Positions 21,616 through 32,188 of a DNA stretch of 32,188 nt are shown piece after piece. Each line of letters opens with the position of its first letter. Position 1 is the first letter of the stretch. This DNA comes from a virus. Both the position numbers and the translations under genes were made by a program. The stretch is from positions 1-32,188 of IMG/VR virus record IMGVR_UViG_3300030328_000198. The stretch is one strand, 5' to 3'. The notes under the pieces are model-generated. The model saw nothing but the letters and a program-made list of their open reading frames with translations. It made no database searches and was not told where the DNA came from.

Positions 21616-24600
21616 ATGCAAGAAAATCAACCTTTGATACAAGACCCAAACGTTGTACAAGATCCAAACGCTGTGCAAGAGCCTGATGTTGTGCAAGAGC
21701 CTGATGTTGTGCAACAACCGGAAAGTGAATTAGAAAAAATAGTTGGATACATGAGAAAACAAAATTTCTCTATGGATCGTATTAAGAAGGTTGTAAGAGA
21801 TTATAAAAAGAAAGAAGAGTTAGAGAAAGTTGAAGCCGCAAGAATAGCTAAGCTAACTAAATCAAACGATGCTAGTGCTATTTACAAGCAACAAAAGTTA
21901 CAAAAGAAAGCTATGAACGAATGGGCTTCTTCTTTGCAACCTGGCGCAGAGTTTACAAACGATCAAGGAGTAAACTACTCTTTAAACGAAAATAACGAAT
22001 GGACATCTAATGGTGAAGTTGTCGATCAAGACGATTTCAAAACCAATCAACTCCCACAATATTATAAGCAGTTAACTACTGCAGGTGAAGTTCCAGATTT
22101 TTCTGTAATGTCGCCTGAGCTAGAGAATCTTATTAATGCTACTAAAATAACTGATGAACAATCAAATACTATAAACAAAAAAGCTAATAGTAGATTTGAT
22201 ATTTTCAACAAATTTCAAGCTACTGGTGGTCCTGATGTTAGAGATCGTCAAGCTAGAGGAGGAGTGGTAGAAGAAGAAAACCCGTTATTTGAATGGGATC
22301 AAGTTGATAATCTTGCGGATTATAAAAGTGGAGATGTGCACTATGTTTCTCCTTACGCAGAAGATCCTTCAAAAGGTATTTCTATAGAAGATGAAAGGCG
22401 ATTATACAATAGAGACAAACAAATTATTGACGCTGTAAAAACTAGAGAAGCTATTAAAAGAATTGCGAAAGAAAAAGGAATATCACCAAGCGAAGTAGAT
22501 GTAAACTCTAAAGAAGTTAAAAAATTAGCAGAATCTATTACTAATGATGATATTAGAGAAGATGCCATTAAAGCCCTTTCAGAACAAGAGAGACTTGATC
22601 AAATAGATCGTAATGTAGAGAATTTTATAGATCAAGAAGAGGGTGAAGAAGGTTTTGATACTAAATGGTGGCAAACTTTTGGTGTGCTTAAAGGTAAAGA
22701 CCAAAAAGAAGTTTCAAAAGAAATTGATAAAATATTTAGTGAGGAGGAAAAATATATTAACAAGACCACTGCTAAACAAGAGGTAATTGCTAATGAAATA
22801 GAAGATATTGACGGGGCTTTAGAGGGTTATACTACAGATTCTAAAAACATTATAGCTCAAATAGAAAAAATTCAAGGTCGTGAGTTTACTACGCAAGAAG
22901 AGGTTGATGAGGCTAATGCTGAAATACGAGGTTTACAAGATCAACTTAGAGGTATAGATTCAAATTACAATGCTATTTTAGAACGTAGAAACGATTTAGT
23001 AAAAACATCAGGAAAAATATTTGAAAACTTTCAAAATGCTTTTCCTGACGATAATCCAAATTGGGAACATTATAAAGATCTTTTAAGTAGAAATTATAGT
23101 GGTTTAGCGTATACTGGTAATGCTATGGTTGGCTGGGTTTCTAACACGGCTCAAAGTCTTGATGAGTGGATTTATAGATTTAATCCATTAAGATTGGTAA
23201 AAGATGAAAATGGAGAAATGCCTGACTGGCTTAAACCTATGAGTGGTGTTTTAGCAGTTGCAGCGCCAAGCATGGGAGGATTAATGGCTCAAGCCGCGGA
23301 AACTGAGGAAGAAAGAAAAGAAAGACATGATAACTGGAATGCTTGGCAAGAGCAGTGGTCAAGTAGGGTTCAAAAACCAAAAGCTTGGGACGAGGTTGAT
23401 GGTTGGTATGATTTTGGAGAGTGGTCTGCTGGTGTAGCTGGTAATCAAATACCTCAATTAGCTTTTATGTGGGCCACTATGGGTGCCGGTAGTGCATTAG
23501 GTTTAACTGGAACAGCGCTTAAGGTTTGGAGTGGTGCTAGTATGGCAATTCCCGCGGCTGGTGGAAAGTTTAGGGAAATGCAAGAAGAAATGGACATGTA
23601 TCCAACAACAGATGGTGATCCATTATATAGTAATCTTCAGTTGTACTCAATAGCTATGGGTACAGGTATGGTAGAAGCTTTGTCTGAACAAGTTACTTTT
23701 GGACAGTTAGACAACGCTTTAAATATCAGCGGTGCAGCAAGTGATATTTTTACTTTAGGTTTTAAACAAGCTGTTCAAAAAGGCGTGGGAAGTCAGTTAG
23801 CTAGAGTTGGTATTGATATACTTGAAGAAGGTACTTCTGAAGCTTTAGCTACTATGGGTGAAAACCTGTTAGGATGGGCAAGAGGTGGAGAACATAGAAA
23901 CAAAAGTATATGGGATGGTGTTGATGAAGCATTTGTTTCTGGTGCATTAATATCAGTAGGTATAAAAGGAATGGGTGTTGCCAAAGCTCCTACAGCTGCA
24001 TTTACCTCAAAAGATACGAATCAAAAAAGAGGAGAAATTGGTCAAAGACTTCAAAAAATAAATGATATATTAAGAAAACCAGATCTTGATAGTAATTTAA
24101 GAGATAAGTATATTGGTGAAAGAAATAAACTAATAGCACAAAGCAACAAGCTTCTTCAAAGTGATATTAAAAAAGTTGATTTATTATCTAACATGGAGAA
24201 AAAAGCTCTTATAGATATAGAAACGGATATTTTGCAACTTAGATTACAAGCTGAAAATGTAGCTAATGATAATTCTTTAACTCCAGAACAAAAAATTGAA
24301 GAAGCAAAAAAATTACAAGATCAAGTAAACGAACTTCAAAACGATAAAGAACTTATACTTGCTGAATATACAGCACAAGAAGCTGAAGAAAACTATCAAA
24401 TAGAAAAACAAAAAATTCAACAAAAAGTAGATGCTTTTAACAAAAGACAACAACAAGAAGGTGGAGAAGGTAGAACAGCTGAATTAATTGAAACTGATAC
24501 CGATTCTATAAATGAAAGCATATTAGCAGATCTTGCTGAAATAGATGCTGAAATTGCAGAGAACCAAAGAGTATTAGAAAACGTTGATCCAGATAGTGAC

Positions 24601-27600
24601 GCTGCTAGAACTGCTAGAAGTAACATTATTGAATTTAACAAAAGAAAAGCTGGTCTTGAAGGTATGAGTTCTCAGTTTGGTTATATATCTACTGATAAAG
24701 ATGGTAATTCTAAACTATATGTAAATAAAGACACTAACTTAGCAAATAATAACATTACAACACCAATGCATGAATTTTTACATCATGCTCTTTGGGCTAC
24801 TGTAAAAAGAAATCCTGCAACACAAAAAGCAATGGGTGGCGCTTTAATAGATGTTATAAATAACAACGCTAGTGAAGTTGGACAAAACTTTATAAATAAA
24901 GTTGCTGCTTATGAAGGTTCTCAACAATACGGAGAAGAGGTAATAACATCTTTATCAGAAGCGATTAAAACTGGTGATGTTAAATTTAGTGAAAATTTAT
25001 TTACAAAAATTGGAGACAAATTACGTAGATATTTTCAAAACAATTACCCTAATTCTGCTTTAGGTAAAATTAAATTTAATAAAGGTAGAGATGTATATAA
25101 CTTTATTAAAGACTTTAATGACAGTATAGAAAAAGGATATGAAAGCGCTGCTATAAATCAAGTGATAGACAAAGGAGCTATTGGTAGATTAGTTGATGGT
25201 AAAAAAGTTGATCCAGTTAAAGATCAAGGTGAAGTTTACGAATCTAAAATATATCAAGAAACAGACTTGATGTATAAAGAAAATAAAACTAGATGGGGTA
25301 ATGATAGAATAAGAAAAGGCTTGGCTGCTCAAATGGCATATGGTTTAGAAAACGATGTCATGTATAGGTTGAAAAACTTTGAAGGTATAACAGCTGAAAG
25401 ACAAGATATAGCTTTAGATTTTATTGCTGATGACAAAAGCGGGTTAACTGGTTTGATAGATGGTTTTGATCCTGTAAGAATGATAAACAAAGAAACAGGT
25501 AAACCTTATGAAAGCGTAATGGCTTATTTATTACATCGATTACCAAACGGTATGAGATTAATTGATGCTAGGTTATTAGGTTTTGTTCAAAAAAATCCTA
25601 AGTATGGAAATATTATCCAGTCAATGGAACAAGAGGGTGTTCAAGATAAAATGGAAAAACAAAACTTGACTGACACCACTACACCAGATCCTAGCGAAAA
25701 CATTATAGAGAGAGAAAGTAAAAGAATGTTTGTTAACTCTATGGTTATACCAGATGGTAAAATTGTTGAGCTTAGAGAAAATAATCAAGACACTTATAAC
25801 GAAGCATTACAAGAGGTTCAAGCTGAGTTAGATCAAGATATAAAAAATGGATTAGTTCCAAAGGGCACAGAAGTAAACTTAAATGTAGTTAATCAAAGAT
25901 TTGTGGGTAAAGTTATAGCTAACGAAGTTGCTAATGCTAAAGTTGATATAAACGGTTTAAACTATAAAAGTTTTCAAAAGCTATTAAAACAAGGTCCTTT
26001 AAAACCAGTATTGCAAATATTCGCTGATTTATATGGAGTTCCTATTGATAAACTTATAGGAGATAAAGATCTTAACCAAGTTCAAAGAGGCGCTGCTCAA
26101 AACATGTTCTTATTAAATGCTGATTCAAACCTACAAGGCTTACCAGATGGTCATACAGCGAGCGGAACAGCAACTGGAGTGCCAAGAGTATTACTAAATA
26201 TGGTTAATCCTGAGACAGGAAATACAGATTTATTGTATAAAAAAACAGCCGCAGCCAAAGCAGCGAAAACAGGAAGTACAGCTGGTTTACCTCTTCAAGT
26301 AAAACAAAAAGGTATAAACAAGTCACACGTACAAGAAAACTTAGGTATATATAGAGGGAAACCAAATAATGCTGCTAGAGGTGTAGACGGTATGCTTAGA
26401 GCTTTTGTTATACAAAATGCTATGCTAGCTTCAAATCAAGCTGTTAGACAAGATGCTTTAGTAAATTCAGAAAATCCATTTTCAGTTATAAAAGCTATTG
26501 GTGATGGTAAGTCTGATTTGTATTTTTCTAAAGTGCCTAAAATAGAAGGTGGTAATATTCAGATAAATCCTAACATTGATCAACAAAGATTGTTAGATGT
26601 GTATAATTATGTTGAAAGAAATCCAATATTTAAGACAAGTGTAGATCTTGCTGTTGAAAATACAGCTTTAGAGTTAGGAATTCCTTTGTCTGAGTTTGGC
26701 AATATAGCAGAGGTATTAAATGCTGAAATATCTAAATATAATAAACACGGAATACAAGTTGCTGATTTAGCAAAAGCTGTTAAAAAAGTAATACCAGCAT
26801 TAAGTAATTATAAAAACTGGAATGATTTTACTAATAAAAACTCAGAACTAGCGCAATATGGTCCTTATGACTTTAGTAATAAAAATCCAAATAAAGCAGA
26901 TAACATAGTTCAATATAAAGCTGATGTTTCTAATTTCTTTAAATCGTTGCCAGCGACAATGCTGACAAATAATATGTTCTTAAAAACATTTCAAAACTCA
27001 GTCCCAGGTGATGTATTTACAAAAGCAGAGCTTCAACAAATAGCAAAAGATGTTATAGCAAATAGATCTACAGATATCTCTACTGATATTGATTTTAGTA
27101 AGGTTGGTATACCTTCTCAATTAGCAGATGCTGTTGAGAAAATTGCAAATGAAAATGCAGACAATCCTCAGCGAGCAGCCCAACTAATCAACAAAAGAAT
27201 ATCAGAAGAAGGGTTTGATCAAAATGAAAACGTAAAAGCATTAAAGTCATTTTTAAAAAGCATGAATGATTTTATAAACGAACCAGGAATATCTGAGCAA
27301 GTAAAAATTAATAGGGGTAAAATGGTTTCGACTATAATGTCTCAAAATACAAACTTTAAAGGTGGTATTCTTAGAGGCGCAGCGCCACTTGTAGGAGCCT
27401 CTTTAGCAGGATCAACAACAGCTAAAACACCTGTTTCTAAAATTTCTAAAGTAGATATAGCTAGAGCTTATGGTGTTACTGGTGCTGATGCTAAAATGTT
27501 TGGTGCTATCATGACTGGCGCTAATGTTATTGGTAAAAAAGCAGATATAGCTAGAGTTCAAAAAATGGTAGACACGGCTCTTCAAAATGAAATAGATGCT

Positions 27601-30600
27601 TCTGGAGTAGATATAACTCTAGATCAATACAAAGATCAAATAAAAGAGTCTATGATGCTACCTATGCTTAAGGTTGATAAAAAAACAGGTATTACAAAAC
27701 CTGTGGATATGGTTGAGTTTCAAAGAATAAAAGAAAGACATGATGAACACATGACATCTTTATTGGCTTTCAATACTTCCAACTTTAAAAACATGATGGA
27801 CGGAACATTTGATACTAAGATAGATCAAGAAGTAAAAGATTATAACAGAACGTTATTAAACACTACTGAACAGTTAGAGATGGACGGTATAACTCTTAAC
27901 GGAGTTTCGTTAAAAACAGGTAATGTTGTTGGTCCTGACGGTCAAAGACTTAGTCCGCTTGCTAGAATACTTCAAGTACCAGGAGCTGCGAAAAACATGC
28001 TATTATTTGAGTATGCTGATACAGCTGATAAAGTTATAGCTTCTGAAATAGCTTTTGAAAAAATGAAAAGAGGAGAATTAACAGCTCCTATTGTTAATAA
28101 TGTTGAAACCGCGCTAGGAAAAAACACAGAATATTTTTCTAAAAATACAGACATAGTGTTTGATAATATTGACGCAAGAGAAGCTTTTGGTAATTTAATA
28201 TCTAAAAACACAGATCCAGTTCAATCAAAGATAGCAGCGGTTGAGTTGGTGAAAACCATGGAAAATATAAACGATATTAATGATGTTAAAAACAATTTAA
28301 TAAACGCATATCCTTTATTAAATAACGACATGACTTTGGATCAACAGTTGCAAGCTGTAGCTACAATAGATAATGCTATAATGTTTTCTAAAAAACCTAA
28401 CAACCCAACAAAAGGAATTACTATATTAGATTTTGATGATACGTTGGCTACTAGTAAATCTAAAGTTAAATTTACAAAACCAGATGGAACCAAAGGAACT
28501 TTAACCCCAGCTCAATATGCTAAACAATATCAAGACTTATTAGCAGAAGGTTATTCATTTGATTTTTCTGAGTTTAATAAAGTTATAGATGGTAAAATAG
28601 CGCCTTTATTTAACAAAGCTATGAAGCTTCAAGGTAAATTTGGTCCTAAAAACATGTTTGTATTAACAGCTAGACCTATGGAATCTGCTCCAGCGATACA
28701 TGCTTTCTTGAAAGCTAATGGCTTAAATATACCTATAGATAATATTACTGGTTTAGCTAATTCAACTGCTGAAGCAAAAGCAATGTGGATAGCTGATAAG
28801 GTTGGTGAAGGTTATAACGATATATATTTTGCTGATGACGCTTTACAGAACGTGCAGGTTGTTAAAAATGTTTTAGATCAAATGGATGTTAAGTCTAAAG
28901 TACAACAAGCTAAAACAATTTATTACAGTAAGATGTCGGATAACTTTAACGAAATACTAGAGGACGTTAAAGGTATAAGAAAAGAAACTGTATTTTCAGA
29001 TGCTAAAGCTAGAAAACGTGGTCAAAAAGCAGGAAAATGGGATTGGTTTATACCGGCTTCAGCTGAAGACTTTAAAGGTTTGTTATATAAGTTTATAGGT
29101 AAAGGTAAAAAAGGAGAAGCTCAATTACAATTTTTTAAAGATGCTTTAATGGATCCTTTTGCTAAAGCTATTAGAACATTAGATACTATAAAGCAAAGAG
29201 TAGCCACTGATCTATCAGCATTAAATAAACAGTTTAAGGGTATAAATAAGAAATTAAAACAAGAAATACCTACAGGTGATTTTACTTATGACACAGCTGT
29301 AAGAGTTTATAATTGGAACAAACTTGGTTATGATATTCCAGGTATATCTAAAACTGATTTAGCTAATTTAGTAAAAGCTGTAGAAGCTGATCCAGAACTT
29401 GCTGCTTATGCCAATGGTTTAAACAAGGTTGCTGGAGGAATCTACCCTGAACCAGGCCAATATTGGACAACAGAAACTATAGCTTCTGATCTACATAACA
29501 TGACAGAGGGTTTAAATAGAAAGGAAGCATTAGCTGAATTTATTGAAAATAGAAAACAAATATTTGGAGAGTGGGAAAATGGAAACCTTGTTGGACCAAA
29601 TATGAATAAGATAGAAGCTATATATGGTATTAAAGTTAGAGAAGCCTTAACAGATATGTTGTGGCGTATGGAAAACGGTACTAATAGAAACTTTGGTGGT
29701 AATAGATTAACAAATAGATTCGCTAATTGGGTAAACAATTCTGTTGGTGCTATCATGTTCCTTAATATGAGATCAGCTGTTTTACAGACTTTATCTACTG
29801 TTAACTTTATGAATTGGGGCTTTAACAATCCTTTAAGAGCTGCAAAAGCATTTGCTAATCAACCTCAATTTTGGAAAGATTTTGCAATGATATTTAATTC
29901 AGACATGTTAAAGTCTAGACGAGGTGGTTTAAAAACATCTGTTAGTCACGCTGAATTAGCAGAAGCCGCTTCTGGATCTAAAGGTTCACCTAAGGCTATA
30001 TTTGCTAAGTTAATAAAATTAGGTTTTACACCAACGCAAATCGCGGATAGTTTTGCTATAGCAATGGGTGGAGCTAGTTTTTATAGAAACAGATTTAATG
30101 ATTTAATAAAACAAGGTGTTTCTGAAGCAGATGCTAAAGCTCAAGCTTGGAATGAATTCCAACAAATAACTGAAGAAACTCAACAGTCTGCTAGACCTGA
30201 TATGATCTCCTCGCAACAAGCATCTCCACTTGGCAGATTGCTGCTTGCTTTCCAAAACACACCAATGCAGTACACTAGAATAATGAAAAAAGCTGCGTTG
30301 GATATTGCTAACGGTAGAGGTGATTTGAAGACTAATATATCTAAAATAATTTACTACGGAGCTGTACAAAACTTTATATTCTCCGCTTTACAAAAAGGAT
30401 TGTTTGCAATAGCATTTAGCGGTGAAGACGAAGAAGAGGAAAAACGTGATAAGAAAGCAATAAACTTAGCTAATTCAATGTTAGATTCTGTACTTAGAGG
30501 TACGGGTGTAAGTGGAGCTGTTGTTTCTACTATAAAAAACATGATAATGAAAGCTATGGAAGAAAGTGATAAGGGTTGGAATTCTGACGAAGGAAAAGTT

Positions 30601-31110
30601 ATTTTACAATTCTTAAATTTATCACCACCAGTTGGGTCAAAAGCTAGAAAACTAAATAGTGGTTTAAAAACTCTTAAGTTTAAAGGAGAGGAAATTAAAG
30701 AAATGTCAACGTTTGATATAAACAATCCTATTTGGAATAGTATTGGTCATTTTGTTTCTTTTTCAACAAACATTCCTTTAGATAGAGCTATTCAAAAAGT
30801 ACAAAATATTTCAGAAGCAAATAACCAAGATCATGAGGTTTGGCAACGAATAGCATTAATGATGGGTTGGAACACTTGGGATATTGGTATTAAAAACACA
30901 GCTGTTGAAGAAGCGTCTAAAAGAGTTGATGCTAAGAAAGAAGCAAAAAAAGAAGCTGAAAAAGAAGCTAAGAAAAAACAAAAAGAAAAAGAAAGAAAAG
31001 AAAGAGAAGCTAGAGAAGTACAATGTTCAGCTCGTACCAGAAAAGGTAAAGGACCTAGATGTAAGAATAGAACTGAAAATAAATCTGGTAGATGCTATGC
31101 TCATCAGTAA
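21616..31110 (+). CDS. Giant multi-domain internal virion (ejection) protein with zincin, HAD and Cys3-His motifs
   Basis: A 3164-residue protein, probably packed in the capsid and injected with the DNA (T7 gp16-like position; multi-domain like the 'polyvalent' phage proteins). In order: a short proline repeat at residues 9-32 or so; coiled coils (about 370-480); a tryptophan/glycine-rich, partly hydrophobic region (about 600-800) with EEGTSEAL; more coiled coil (about 800-1000); a zincin motif HEFLH (1052-1056) followed by GEEVITSLSE (E1107/E1108 as possible third ligand); a HAD phosphatase domain with DFDDT (2272-2276), VLTARP (T2351), K2388 or K2395, and ADD (D2407/D2408); then IPASAEDFKGLLYKFIGKGK and a C-terminal virion module with QSARPDMISSQQASPLGRLL (from 2857), a hydrophobic helix (about 2911-2934), and a final C3137-C3149-C3160-H3163 zinc motif. 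Which activities are real is untested. Residues 2450-3090 look widely conserved from memory. Confidence 0.8.
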   Translation: MQENQPLIQDPNVVQDPNAVQEPDVVQEPDVVQQPESELEKIVGYMRKQNFSMDRIKKVVRDYKKKEELEKVEAARIAKLTKSNDASAIYKQQKLQKKAMNEWASSLQPGAEFTNDQGVNYSLNENNEWTSNGEVVDQDDFKTNQLPQYYKQLTTAGEVPDFSVMSPELENLINATKITDEQSNTINKKANSRFDIFNKFQATGGPDVRDRQARGGVVEEENPLFEWDQVDNLADYKSGDVHYVSPYAEDPSKGISIEDERRLYNRDKQIIDAVKTREAIKRIAKEKGISPSEVDVNSKEVKKLAESITNDDIREDAIKALSEQERLDQIDRNVENFIDQEEGEEGFDTKWWQTFGVLKGKDQKEVSKEIDKIFSEEEKYINKTTAKQEVIANEIEDIDGALEGYTTDSKNIIAQIEKIQGREFTTQEEVDEANAEIRGLQDQLRGIDSNYNAILERRNDLVKTSGKIFENFQNAFPDDNPNWEHYKDLLSRNYSGLAYTGNAMVGWVSNTAQSLDEWIYRFNPLRLVKDENGEMPDWLKPMSGVLAVAAPSMGGLMAQAAETEEERKERHDNWNAWQEQWSSRVQKPKAWDEVDGWYDFGEWSAGVAGNQIPQLAFMWATMGAGSALGLTGTALKVWSGASMAIPAAGGKFREMQEEMDMYPTTDGDPLYSNLQLYSIAMGTGMVEALSEQVTFGQLDNALNISGAASDIFTLGFKQAVQKGVGSQLARVGIDILEEGTSEALATMGENLLGWARGGEHRNKSIWDGVDEAFVSGALISVGIKGMGVAKAPTAAFTSKDTNQKRGEIGQRLQKINDILRKPDLDSNLRDKYIGERNKLIAQSNKLLQSDIKKVDLLSNMEKKALIDIETDILQLRLQAENVANDNSLTPEQKIEEAKKLQDQVNELQNDKELILAEYTAQEAEENYQIEKQKIQQKVDAFNKRQQQEGGEGRTAELIETDTDSINESILADLAEIDAEIAENQRVLENVDPDSDAARTARSNIIEFNKRKAGLEGMSSQFGYISTDKDGNSKLYVNKDTNLANNNITTPMHEFLHHALWATVKRNPATQKAMGGALIDVINNNASEVGQNFINKVAAYEGSQQYGEEVITSLSEAIKTGDVKFSENLFTKIGDKLRRYFQNNYPNSALGKIKFNKGRDVYNFIKDFNDSIEKGYESAAINQVIDKGAIGRLVDGKKVDPVKDQGEVYESKIYQETDLMYKENKTRWGNDRIRKGLAAQMAYGLENDVMYRLKNFEGITAERQDIALDFIADDKSGLTGLIDGFDPVRMINKETGKPYESVMAYLLHRLPNGMRLIDARLLGFVQKNPKYGNIIQSMEQEGVQDKMEKQNLTDTTTPDPSENIIERESKRMFVNSMVIPDGKIVELRENNQDTYNEALQEVQAELDQDIKNGLVPKGTEVNLNVVNQRFVGKVIANEVANAKVDINGLNYKSFQKLLKQGPLKPVLQIFADLYGVPIDKLIGDKDLNQVQRGAAQNMFLLNADSNLQGLPDGHTASGTATGVPRVLLNMVNPETGNTDLLYKKTAAAKAAKTGSTAGLPLQVKQKGINKSHVQENLGIYRGKPNNAARGVDGMLRAFVIQNAMLASNQAVRQDALVNSENPFSVIKAIGDGKSDLYFSKVPKIEGGNIQINPNIDQQRLLDVYNYVERNPIFKTSVDLAVENTALELGIPLSEFGNIAEVLNAEISKYNKHGIQVADLAKAVKKVIPALSNYKNWNDFTNKNSELAQYGPYDFSNKNPNKADNIVQYKADVSNFFKSLPATMLTNNMFLKTFQNSVPGDVFTKAELQQIAKDVIANRSTDISTDIDFSKVGIPSQLADAVEKIANENADNPQRAAQLINKRISEEGFDQNENVKALKSFLKSMNDFINEPGISEQVKINRGKMVSTIMSQNTNFKGGILRGAAPLVGASLAGSTTAKTPVSKISKVDIARAYGVTGADAKMFGAIMTGANVIGKKADIARVQKMVDTALQNEIDASGVDITLDQYKDQIKESMMLPMLKVDKKTGITKPVDMVEFQRIKERHDEHMTSLLAFNTSNFKNMMDGTFDTKIDQEVKDYNRTLLNTTEQLEMDGITLNGVSLKTGNVVGPDGQRLSPLARILQVPGAAKNMLLFEYADTADKVIASEIAFEKMKRGELTAPIVNNVETALGKNTEYFSKNTDIVFDNIDAREAFGNLISKNTDPVQSKIAAVELVKTMENINDINDVKNNLINAYPLLNNDMTLDQQLQAVATIDNAIMFSKKPNNPTKGITILDFDDTLATSKSKVKFTKPDGTKGTLTPAQYAKQYQDLLAEGYSFDFSEFNKVIDGKIAPLFNKAMKLQGKFGPKNMFVLTARPMESAPAIHAFLKANGLNIPIDNITGLANSTAEAKAMWIADKVGEGYNDIYFADDALQNVQVVKNVLDQMDVKSKVQQAKTIYYSKMSDNFNEILEDVKGIRKETVFSDAKARKRGQKAGKWDWFIPASAEDFKGLLYKFIGKGKKGEAQLQFFKDALMDPFAKAIRTLDTIKQRVATDLSALNKQFKGINKKLKQEIPTGDFTYDTAVRVYNWNKLGYDIPGISKTDLANLVKAVEADPELAAYANGLNKVAGGIYPEPGQYWTTETIASDLHNMTEGLNRKEALAEFIENRKQIFGEWENGNLVGPNMNKIEAIYGIKVREALTDMLWRMENGTNRNFGGNRLTNRFANWVNNSVGAIMFLNMRSAVLQTLSTVNFMNWGFNNPLRAAKAFANQPQFWKDFAMIFNSDMLKSRRGGLKTSVSHAELAEAASGSKGSPKAIFAKLIKLGFTPTQIADSFAIAMGGASFYRNRFNDLIKQGVSEADAKAQAWNEFQQITEETQQSARPDMISSQQASPLGRLLLAFQNTPMQYTRIMKKAALDIANGRGDLKTNISKIIYYGAVQNFIFSALQKGLFAIAFSGEDEEEEKRDKKAINLANSMLDSVLRGTGVSGAVVSTIKNMIMKAMEESDKGWNSDEGKVILQFLNLSPPVGSKARKLNSGLKTLKFKGEEIKEMSTFDINNPIWNSIGHFVSFSTNIPLDRAIQKVQNISEANNQDHEVWQRIALMMGWNTWDIGIKNTAVEEASKRVDAKKEAKKEAEKEAKKKQKEKERKEREAREVQCSARTRKGKGPRCKNRTENKSGRCYAHQ
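21640..21711 (+). repeat. 18-base in-frame tandem repeat at the start of the giant gene
   Basis: Four consecutive 18-base units, the last two (21676-21693 and 21694-21711) identical and the first two diverged, followed by half a unit. They encode a six-residue repeat, QDPNVV/QDPNAV/QEPDVV/QEPDVV. Unit number could change by slippage without breaking the frame. Confidence 0.9.
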
Positions 31111-31140: not shown

Positions 31141-32188
31141 ATGAAAAAACTACTAACAATATTATTAATAACACTAGTTTCCTGCGCAACTCCAAAAGAT
31201 TGCTGTGCACAGGTTAATTTGAAAAAATATTTTAAATTTTCAACTTTTTACGCAGCTGCAAGTGGAGGTACGTCTATATCAGATGTTGAAACTTTTTCTG
31301 TTAATAATGGTTTGGAAACTAATACTATAAAAACACCCTTTGATTATAATTTAGCTTTAGGAATACGTAAAATAGCTAGATTTGGTTATGAAAATAGAGC
31401 TCAAACATTTTATGATGGTACGGAAGAGTCTTGGTCAGATGGTGCAAACGTGGGTAAATCACGTGGGTTAGAGTTTTTATTTGAAATAGATTATAAAAGA
31501 CAACAAGGTAATGAATATTTAGATCAGCATCACTTTATAAGATTTGTTGATGATAAGTATATATTAAAAGGTGAATATTTAGAAGATGGTTTTGCAGACA
31601 TTAAATACTTTGAAACATCAGAAAGATATAGATATAAAGTTAATGACAAATTGTCCTTTAATGCTGGGCTTGCTCAAAGGTTATCTGAGCCATATGGTTA
31701 CGATCCTTTAGCGGAATGGATGCTAAGCAATGGCAATATACATTACACTTACCTAGCACTACAAGAGGGTTACAACGTCGATGTAGCTGCTAGTGAGTAT
31801 TTTTCTCCTAATGGAGAACTCGTTGCTACAAGCAAGGAGGTTTGGGAAGAGGTTGTTATACCAGTTGTTTTAGCTGATTACACTGAAAGAAAGCGTAATG
31901 AGTTAGACTTAATGATACAGCATTCGGTTGTATTAGGTTTTGATTATTATCACTATACAAAAACTTTTTGGACACACTCTTGGGCTAATTTAATGCCTTA
32001 TCATTTAGACCAAGGAGGTGAGTTTTCTTATCATAAATTTAACAACGGACAATGGTTAGATTATAGTGGTGGTATTATATTTGGTTATAAGTATAGTAAA
32101 AGATTAGGTACTTTTATCGAGGGAAAATATAATAAATACTGGAATAGAGAATGGTATGATTTTAAATTTGGAATTAACTACATAATAC
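31141..32188 (+). CDS. Exported outer-membrane-type protein, cut by the window edge
   Basis: The frame is open from 31141 through the window edge; 349 codons are visible and the 3' end is missing. The N-terminus has a lysine start, a hydrophobic core and a lipobox LVSC (C15), so lipoprotein sorting is likely; CCAQ (21-24) is an alternative signal-peptidase site of the kind common in Bacteroidota. The mature part is rich in Tyr, Phe, Trp and Gly with alternating strands (KFSTFYAAASGGTS, SHRY-like segments such as ERYRYKV, and SGGIIFGYKYSKRLGTFIEG). It nearly ends in DFKFGINYII, like the terminal strand of outer-membrane beta-barrels. I recall homologues in uncultured marine flavobacterial phages, always downstream of the giant ejection gene. 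It could shield the host surface against superinfecting phages, alter receptors, or sit on the virion; the role is unknown. It starts 30 bases after the giant gene. Confidence 0.75.
   Translation, partial: MKKLLTILLITLVSCATPKDCCAQVNLKKYFKFSTFYAAASGGTSISDVETFSVNNGLETNTIKTPFDYNLALGIRKIARFGYENRAQTFYDGTEESWSDGANVGKSRGLEFLFEIDYKRQQGNEYLDQHHFIRFVDDKYILKGEYLEDGFADIKYFETSERYRYKVNDKLSFNAGLAQRLSEPYGYDPLAEWMLSNGNIHYTYLALQEGYNVDVAASEYFSPNGELVATSKEVWEEVVIPVVLADYTERKRNELDLMIQHSVVLGFDYYHYTKTFWTHSWANLMPYHLDQGGEFSYHKFNNGQWLDYSGGIIFGYKYSKRLGTFIEGKYNKYWNREWYDFKFGINYII

Follow-up and report, generated by a model that had tools for sequence, protein, structure and literature searches.

Why would a phage encode, directly behind its virion genes, a protein with a lipoprotein signal and the character of an outer-membrane barrel? 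The question is raised by the last gene of the window, the whole stretch of DNA analysed here, which is an IMG/VR virus record that is marked linear and has 32,188 bases. Its gene series starts with a terminase (PHROG 6681, E 1e-152), continues through virion proteins to an ORF of 3164 aa, and reaches, after a gap of 30 bases, the barrel ORF, whose translation starts MKKLLTILLITLVSC (Table 1). The terminase and a virion structural protein have their nearest named relatives in the Flavobacterium elemo phages, the Cellulophaga phages phi38:1 and Calle (Pervagoviridae), Maribacter phage Panino, and the uncultured podovirus MW202828, and by virtue of these relatives a flavobacterium is the likely host.

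Table 1. Features of the barrel gene and its left neighbour (window positions).
Feature	Position	Strand	Basis or remark
Giant gene, 3164 aa, closing the virion gene series	21616..31110	+	Usual left neighbour, outside the module
Barrel protein ORF, 349 aa, open at the window end	31141..32187	+	Last residue and stop outside
Signal sequence, residues 1-14	31141..31182	+	Translation, leader alignment
Lipobox LVSC, residues 12-15, putative lipidated Cys15	31174..31185	+	Leader-class conservation
CC leader motif CATPKDCCAQ, residues 15-24	31183..31212	+	Leader exchanged at about Q24
Predicted beta-barrel, residues 35-347, 12 to 14 strands	31243..32181	+	Models, conservation
Strongly conserved inter-strand stretch, residues 78-108	31372..31464	+	Alignment, model
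Inter-strand insert of 75 residues (183-257), conserved and partly helical	31687..31911	+	Alignment, model
C-terminal strand end KFGINYII, residues 342-349	32164..32187	+	Translation, relatives

Two close relatives (L002 and L003, 95% and 93% identity) are one residue longer than the window ORF and then reach a stop codon; the window ORF therefore lacks only its last residue and the stop. The frame was preserved in 98 aligned rows with 62-95% identity to the window, indicating that this is a real gene. Its position downstream of a giant gene, pointed out in the preliminary description, recurs elsewhere: the order giant gene, barrel gene was found again in loci of the window's own clade (n = 86) and in 57 of 81 loci of a sister clade. 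The tail of the giant gene product, CSARTRKGKGPRCKNRTENKSGRCYAH (window 31023-31107), is rich in Cys and His and looks like a small metal-binding motif.

The lipobox and the three early cysteines (C15, C21, and C22) that had been read from the letters alone were borne out by the translation. A hydrophobic leader with either a lipobox or an A/S/G/C-Q junction, as expected of a Sec signal peptide, was present in all 98 rows; a larger set had the junction in every row (143 of 143). Two kinds of leader were distinguished. In 58 of the 98 rows the lipobox is followed by the pattern C-x-x-[P/T]-K-x-C-C-[S/G/A]-Q, termed here the CC leader, and the other 40 rows have a plain signal peptide ending in A/S/G/C-Q. 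Within the CC-leader class, position -1 of the lipobox is A, S, or G and position -3 is L or I in 57 of 58 rows each; judged by this conservation, the CC leader is not a product of chance. When 143 mature domains were placed on a tree, 24 changes of leader type were counted, against a mean of 48 and a minimum of 41 in 200 label shuffles, so the leader is partly inherited and often exchanged. The mature parts of L217, with a plain leader, and L227, with a CC leader, are 98% identical. From such comparisons the two leaders are interchangeable, being swapped where the mature domain begins, and the lipobox is dispensable in the family. The lipobox is thus genuine in the window protein but is not kept across the family, 40 of the 98 rows being without it, and the swaps between near-identical mature parts lowered the idea that it is the key to function. 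In the sister clade, 80 of 81 loci have the plain leader.

Two AlphaFold models, based on 98 and 94 sequences, gave 12 to 14 long strands at moderate confidence (pLDDT 73.7 and 77.1), and not the globular fold without a barrel that the preliminary description had named as contrary evidence. Across the 13 predicted strands, conservation alternates by face to a degree that 0 of 20,000 permutations reached; polarity alternates too (reached by 182 of 20,000), and the conserved face is the polar face in 10 of the 13; the alternation suspected earlier is therefore real and beyond permutation chance. Most invariant residues, including charged ones, sit on one strand face, which in the models is taken as the inward face. 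The strongly conserved stretch of residues 78-108 would be periplasmic if the C terminus is periplasmic. The FGINYII segment noticed near the window edge forms residues 343-349, and the strand end to which it belongs resembles a BAM beta-signal.

The top structural matches of the models were outer-membrane barrels, among them Tsx (Z 11.5, rmsd 3.9, 195 aligned), OmpG (Z 11.9, rmsd 5.0, 184 aligned), NanC, KdgM, CymA, Omp33, autotransporter barrels, and OMPLA. Many matches were tied and identify the fold only, and 73 of 999 chains reached a Z of at least 8; FadL and a chain of a type IX complex also appeared only among generic barrels. No PorP/SprF or any other Pfam match was obtained for the barrel at E up to 1, and Pfam gave no type IX C-terminal sorting domain on it. 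Leaders, strand alternation, and models together support well the exported outer-membrane barrel character proposed at the outset, and we consider it very likely, as far as modelling can tell, that the protein is an exported outer-membrane beta-barrel.

In the relatives this gene belongs to a trio. Its partners are a protein of about 92 aa that has a single transmembrane helix at its N terminus and is otherwise coiled-coil-like (the TM protein) and a secreted protein of about 107 aa with a thioredoxin fold lacking CxxC (the Trx-like protein). Both were present in all 65 window-clade loci that extend 1.8 kb or further past the barrel gene, and all genes examined lay on one strand in 86 of 86 loci. 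The commonest order in this clade is giant gene, barrel, TM protein, Trx-like protein, and then a large exported repeat protein, the cargo. A different arrangement, seen in 7 of 86 loci, has the barrel gene behind the cargo and not ahead of the TM gene. The Trx-like protein matches PF00085 above the cut-off and has a leader in 74 of 75 sequences, and as many (74 of 75) show the Pro-Thr that belongs to the cis-proline loop. Its only CxxC (1 of 75) lies within the leader, and outside the leader the count is 0 of 75 (e.g., L002:9699-10022), implying a redox-dead protein. The TM protein scored weakly against holin families (E 0.048 and E 0.3).

A cargo match was found in 65 of the 86 window-clade loci. 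A type IX sorting domain was detected by both Pfam and NCBIfam in 14 of 49 cargos examined, after 9 virion-protein or non-cargo rows of 58, and also 9 truncated rows, had been left out; several cargo rows begin at a late Met, with their C termini unaffected. Most other cargos end in a shorter sequence that looks like the last half of this domain. Large proteins combining an N-terminal signal peptide with a C-terminal type IX domain that passes the Pfam and NCBIfam cut-offs were seen in L010:10215-12356, L011:11117-13405, L057:9812-12142, and L062:9737-13135, all from uncultured marine phages. At some loci there is also a lipoprotein (L010) or an exported protein resembling Omp28 (L011). Small lipoproteins at L010:9670-10215, L012:9725-10285, L025:9751-10311, and L081:10888-11439 carry AKEQDD, AKETDD, or SKDVDD after the Cys, which resembles the Bacteroidetes surface-export signal. 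Repeats like GCxDPxAxNYxPxAxxDDGSC, as in exported cargo, occur upstream of the module in L046:745-1908. On the opposite strand, L383:739-1152 and L392:7084-7494 encode a second, small exported outer-membrane-like protein (about 137 aa) adjoining a 74-75-aa protein with two helices.

One scan gave 457 stretches encoding barrel relatives, of which 80 were kept, and later scans with more distant queries gave 399, 94, and 150 stretches, partly from the same contigs. The barrel matched no family profile in PHROGs or Pfam (E up to 1) and no PDB sequence (E up to 10). Among the named phages of INPHARED, neither the window barrel protein nor the cargo found a match, a typed consensus of the barrel family reached only E 1 or more, and the Trx-like protein had three weak matches to gut phages. 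A genome_contigs scan for the barrel returned six loci. Profile A1 matched 2 of 395 genomes of one order (G002 and G370) and profile A2 matched 1 of 395 genomes of the class (G002), draws that may overlap; the portions read look like phage DNA by gene content, and a bacterial origin of the barrel was set aside. No description of the trio appeared among the papers listed by literature searches. A second, divergent barrel gene copy, followed by an SNase-like gene, was seen in one contig (L065:13732-14805), and an SNase-like gene lies near the trio in 20 of 86 loci.

The sister clade was sampled as 80 loci of 150 stretches, plus L520. The trio was present in all 63 loci with 1.5 kb on both sides, and cargo was found in 0 of 81. 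An M15 endolysin gene lies within 3 kb in 70 of 81 loci, the order being giant gene, barrel, TM, Trx, and M15 in 57, and the gap from Trx to M15 had a median of 205 bases (n = 65). In the window clade the M15 gene lies a median of 4.8 kb beyond Trx, past the cargo, and was found in 16 of 31 long loci, a figure that rises to 20 of 31 with a second endolysin-like motif. The ORFs of L252 for endolysin, barrel, TM, and Trx each overlap the next at their ends, and behind the barrel of L253 come a lipoprotein, an endolysin, and a holin (PHROG 3427, E 6.5e-18). Two tandem TM coiled-coil genes stand between barrel and Trx in two of five sister-clade records (G810 and G812; L521-L528). The preliminary description had offered receptor blocking, surface change ahead of release, and a virion component as open guesses; the neighbourhood in relatives points most to a lysis region, and the exported type IX cargo of the window's clade keeps surface remodelling in play. 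Because the sister clade keeps the trio without the cargo and beside M15, the trio is the core and a member of the lysis region, and the barrel very probably belongs to a conserved three-gene envelope module located there.

A module in this position invites comparison with spanins. In 17 window-clade records we found one barrel each, Trx in 17, and a holin motif and TM in 16 each; the missing TM was masked by ORF choice and was recovered by tblastn. The holin (3TM holin) and DUF5675 counts rest on motifs that we devised. By a simple regex scan, none of the 17 records had another lipoprotein or a u-spanin (two of them lack the last 1.6-1.7 kb), and none had, close to the endolysin, a protein that begins with a helix and ends in a beta tail. 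Proteins of 150-270 aa with an N-terminal transmembrane helix do occur in these records and resemble a virion protein also present in relatives, an unrelated exported protein, or small proteins of the outer membrane. Of 79 loci, 1 had an embedded ORF with a lipobox near the TM gene. In contrast, five of six named relatives without the module, scanned over parts of their genomes, encode a protein of about 200 aa with an N-terminal helix and a beta-rich end, located directly before the M15 gene in MW202828 and directly after the amidase in phi38:1; the same partial scan found none in phi18:3. Proteins of about 200 aa with an N-terminal helix and a tail that reads like four outer-membrane strands were seen near endolysin or terminase genes at L082:18189-18734, L083:15458-16081, L169:12189-12791, L170:4185-4784, and L439:24687-25286, and they are possibly trimeric barrels tethered to the inner membrane.

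The barrel itself was not filed as a spanin because its size, fold, and lipobox conservation fail the definition. An o-spanin of the Rz1 type was rejected, the protein being a predicted barrel of 349 aa and not a small lipoprotein whose periplasmic domain is short and often proline-rich, as was a u-spanin of the T1 gp11 type, since the C terminus is modelled as a beta-strand with no transmembrane helix. To our knowledge, no known spanin is a barrel of 12 to 14 strands; the protein may work like one nonetheless. In the sister clade a small lipoprotein directly follows the endolysin in 22 of 64 loci, and 21 of these 22 are proline-rich at the C end; such a lipoprotein was found in 4 of 5 whole sister-clade records and in 0 of 20 window-clade loci. 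By sequence this proline-rich protein is a more ordinary o-spanin candidate. The barrel is therefore not simply a replacement o-spanin there, and its role as a direct o-spanin substitute was lowered.

The CC leader provides a further connection to spanins. Of 171 loci, some of which share contigs, 108 contained the pattern once each. Six of the 108 (L057, L068, L084, L085, L087, and L088) had it at the start of the cargo and not of the barrel. In a scan of the collection for this pattern, 80 loci of 119 stretches were examined and comprised 69 barrels, 1 cargo, 7 spanin-like proteins, 1 cut leader (L290), and 2 apparent chance matches. At least seven of these carriers are proteins of about 130 aa with a C-terminal hydrophobic helix, on contigs with a T4-like terminase as read by eye. 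The spanin-like genes lie upstream of that terminase (L293:3929-4321, L281:2896-3288, L324:4575-4970, and four more). One lipoprotein leader is common to the barrel and to spanin-like proteins of unrelated marine phage lineages. A protein of this build would need lipidation to function as a spanin, so the CC leader probably is a genuine lipoprotein signal. A search of 296 genomes for the leader pattern had 0 matches. With a profile of the spanin-like proteins (A3), 23 of 30 window-clade records had one match each, mostly to the leader only; the few that reached model position 44-59 of 131 all lay inside barrel- or cargo-sized frames. The same profile, which covers only A3-type spanins, found nothing in 18 sister-clade records.

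We tentatively propose that the trio is an envelope module acting at lysis, a reading that we regard as possible but not yet probable. The trio would span the inner membrane (TM protein), the periplasm (Trx-like protein), and the outer membrane (barrel), and would be made late, together with holin and endolysin. After the endolysin had cut the peptidoglycan, the three proteins would jointly weaken or open the outer membrane, and the virions would leave. The type IX cargo of the window's clade would then be an addition to the core and not its purpose. This proposal is favoured by the constancy of the trio, the closeness of M15 in the sister clade, the CC leader on spanin-like proteins, and the finding of no other spanin in 17 of 17 records, as opposed to the helix-beta protein of five of six relatives without the module. 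It is weakened by the lipoproteins of the sister clade, the distant M15 in the window clade, the weak holin scores of the TM protein, and the moderate confidence of the models; moreover, the absence of spanins rests on a regex, and a lysis-region position suits exclusion genes too. The main rival, which we consider somewhat less likely, is that the trio alters the surface of the infected cell late in infection and thereby blocks other phages or changes adhesion, with type IX cargo and surface lipoproteins as further parts of a surface programme. The large exported cargo beside the trio (65 of 86 window-clade loci; 14 of 49 cargos have the type IX domain) and the lipoprotein (L010) and Omp28-like protein (L011) added at some loci would fit such a programme, and exclusion or inter-strain competition was proposed earlier for Cryophage cargo (PMC7468147). 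However, the sister clade keeps the trio without cargo (0 of 81), the barrel including its insert is highly conserved and not variable as a receptor mimic might be, and late timing, as judged from gene position only, would suit exclusion poorly.

A narrower role, in which the barrel helps the type IX cargo to be exported, anchored, or matured, appears improbable. PorP/SprF-type barrels may help some adhesins in this way, and the close linkage, the barrel behind the cargo in 7 of 86 loci, and the CC leader at the cargo start in six loci (some from the same contigs) are consistent with it; yet cargo is found in 0 of 81 sister loci, all 63 long ones of which have the trio, and we lowered this reading accordingly; nor did Pfam (E up to 1) assign the barrel to PorP/SprF or to any other family. 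That the barrel is an outer-membrane channel or enzyme (porin, phospholipase- or protease-like) serving host metabolism during infection is very unlikely: the invariant charged residues on conserved faces and the presence of OMPLA and porins among the structural matches would agree with it, but those matches are generic to barrels (Z of at least 8 for 73 of 999 chains), no Pfam, PHROGs, or PDB-sequence family was found, and the constant partners would be left unexplained. The least probable reading places the barrel in or on the particle, for instance in an entry apparatus. Its gene does directly follow the virion gene series, but the export signal would take the protein out of the cytoplasm, where virions assemble, and phi38:1, Calle, Panino, and elemoF make virions without a barrel gene in the stretches read.

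Like the spanins Rz/Rz1 and T1 gp11, the module consists of envelope proteins encoded next to the endolysin gene, with an inner-membrane helix and coiled coil plus an outer-membrane protein, and the CC leader is common to the barrel and spanin-like proteins. It differs in that the outer-membrane member is a 349-aa barrel, in its third, secreted thioredoxin-like protein, and in that part of the sister clade has a separate o-spanin-like lipoprotein besides the barrel. Pervagoviridae and their kin (phi38:1, Calle, the elemo phages, Panino, and MW202828) have the same order of terminase, portal, capsid, and giant gene, but in the stretches read they have no barrel, TM, or Trx gene and instead carry the protein of about 200 aa with a helix and beta tail. 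The best viral match in BFVD, A0A516LKJ4 (22% identity, TM 0.63), is a phage-encoded barrel and probably a remote relative; other phage barrels there (OmpA, porin, DUF481) were generic matches, with a TM-score to the query of at most 0.36 in ranks 2-12. Earlier work on Cryophage described type IX secretion cargo encoded by a phage, the products of genes with type IX sorting domains being presumably exported by the host system; they are variable genes of one phage, whereas the cargo here lies beside a conserved marine-phage module (PMC7468147). The barrel differs from such cargo in having no type IX sorting domain itself.

How phages without recognisable spanins open the outer membrane was posed as an explicit open question in one survey, which lists 91 of 677 phages with none found (PMC6139136), and Bacteroidetes phages are credited only with unimolecular spanins in another paper (PMC12596118). 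Speculatively, and with a rather low probability, the trio might be a further route of outer-membrane disruption at lysis in an abundant marine lineage, whose relatives would achieve this with one inner-membrane-anchored protein ending in four outer-membrane strands that could form a 12-stranded barrel as a trimer. The module occurs in hundreds of marine contigs, and the barrel was absent from INPHARED searches. A role of its three small genes in lysis or surface change would be open to direct test, and their arrangement suggests a barrel-based opening or altering of the host envelope late in infection.
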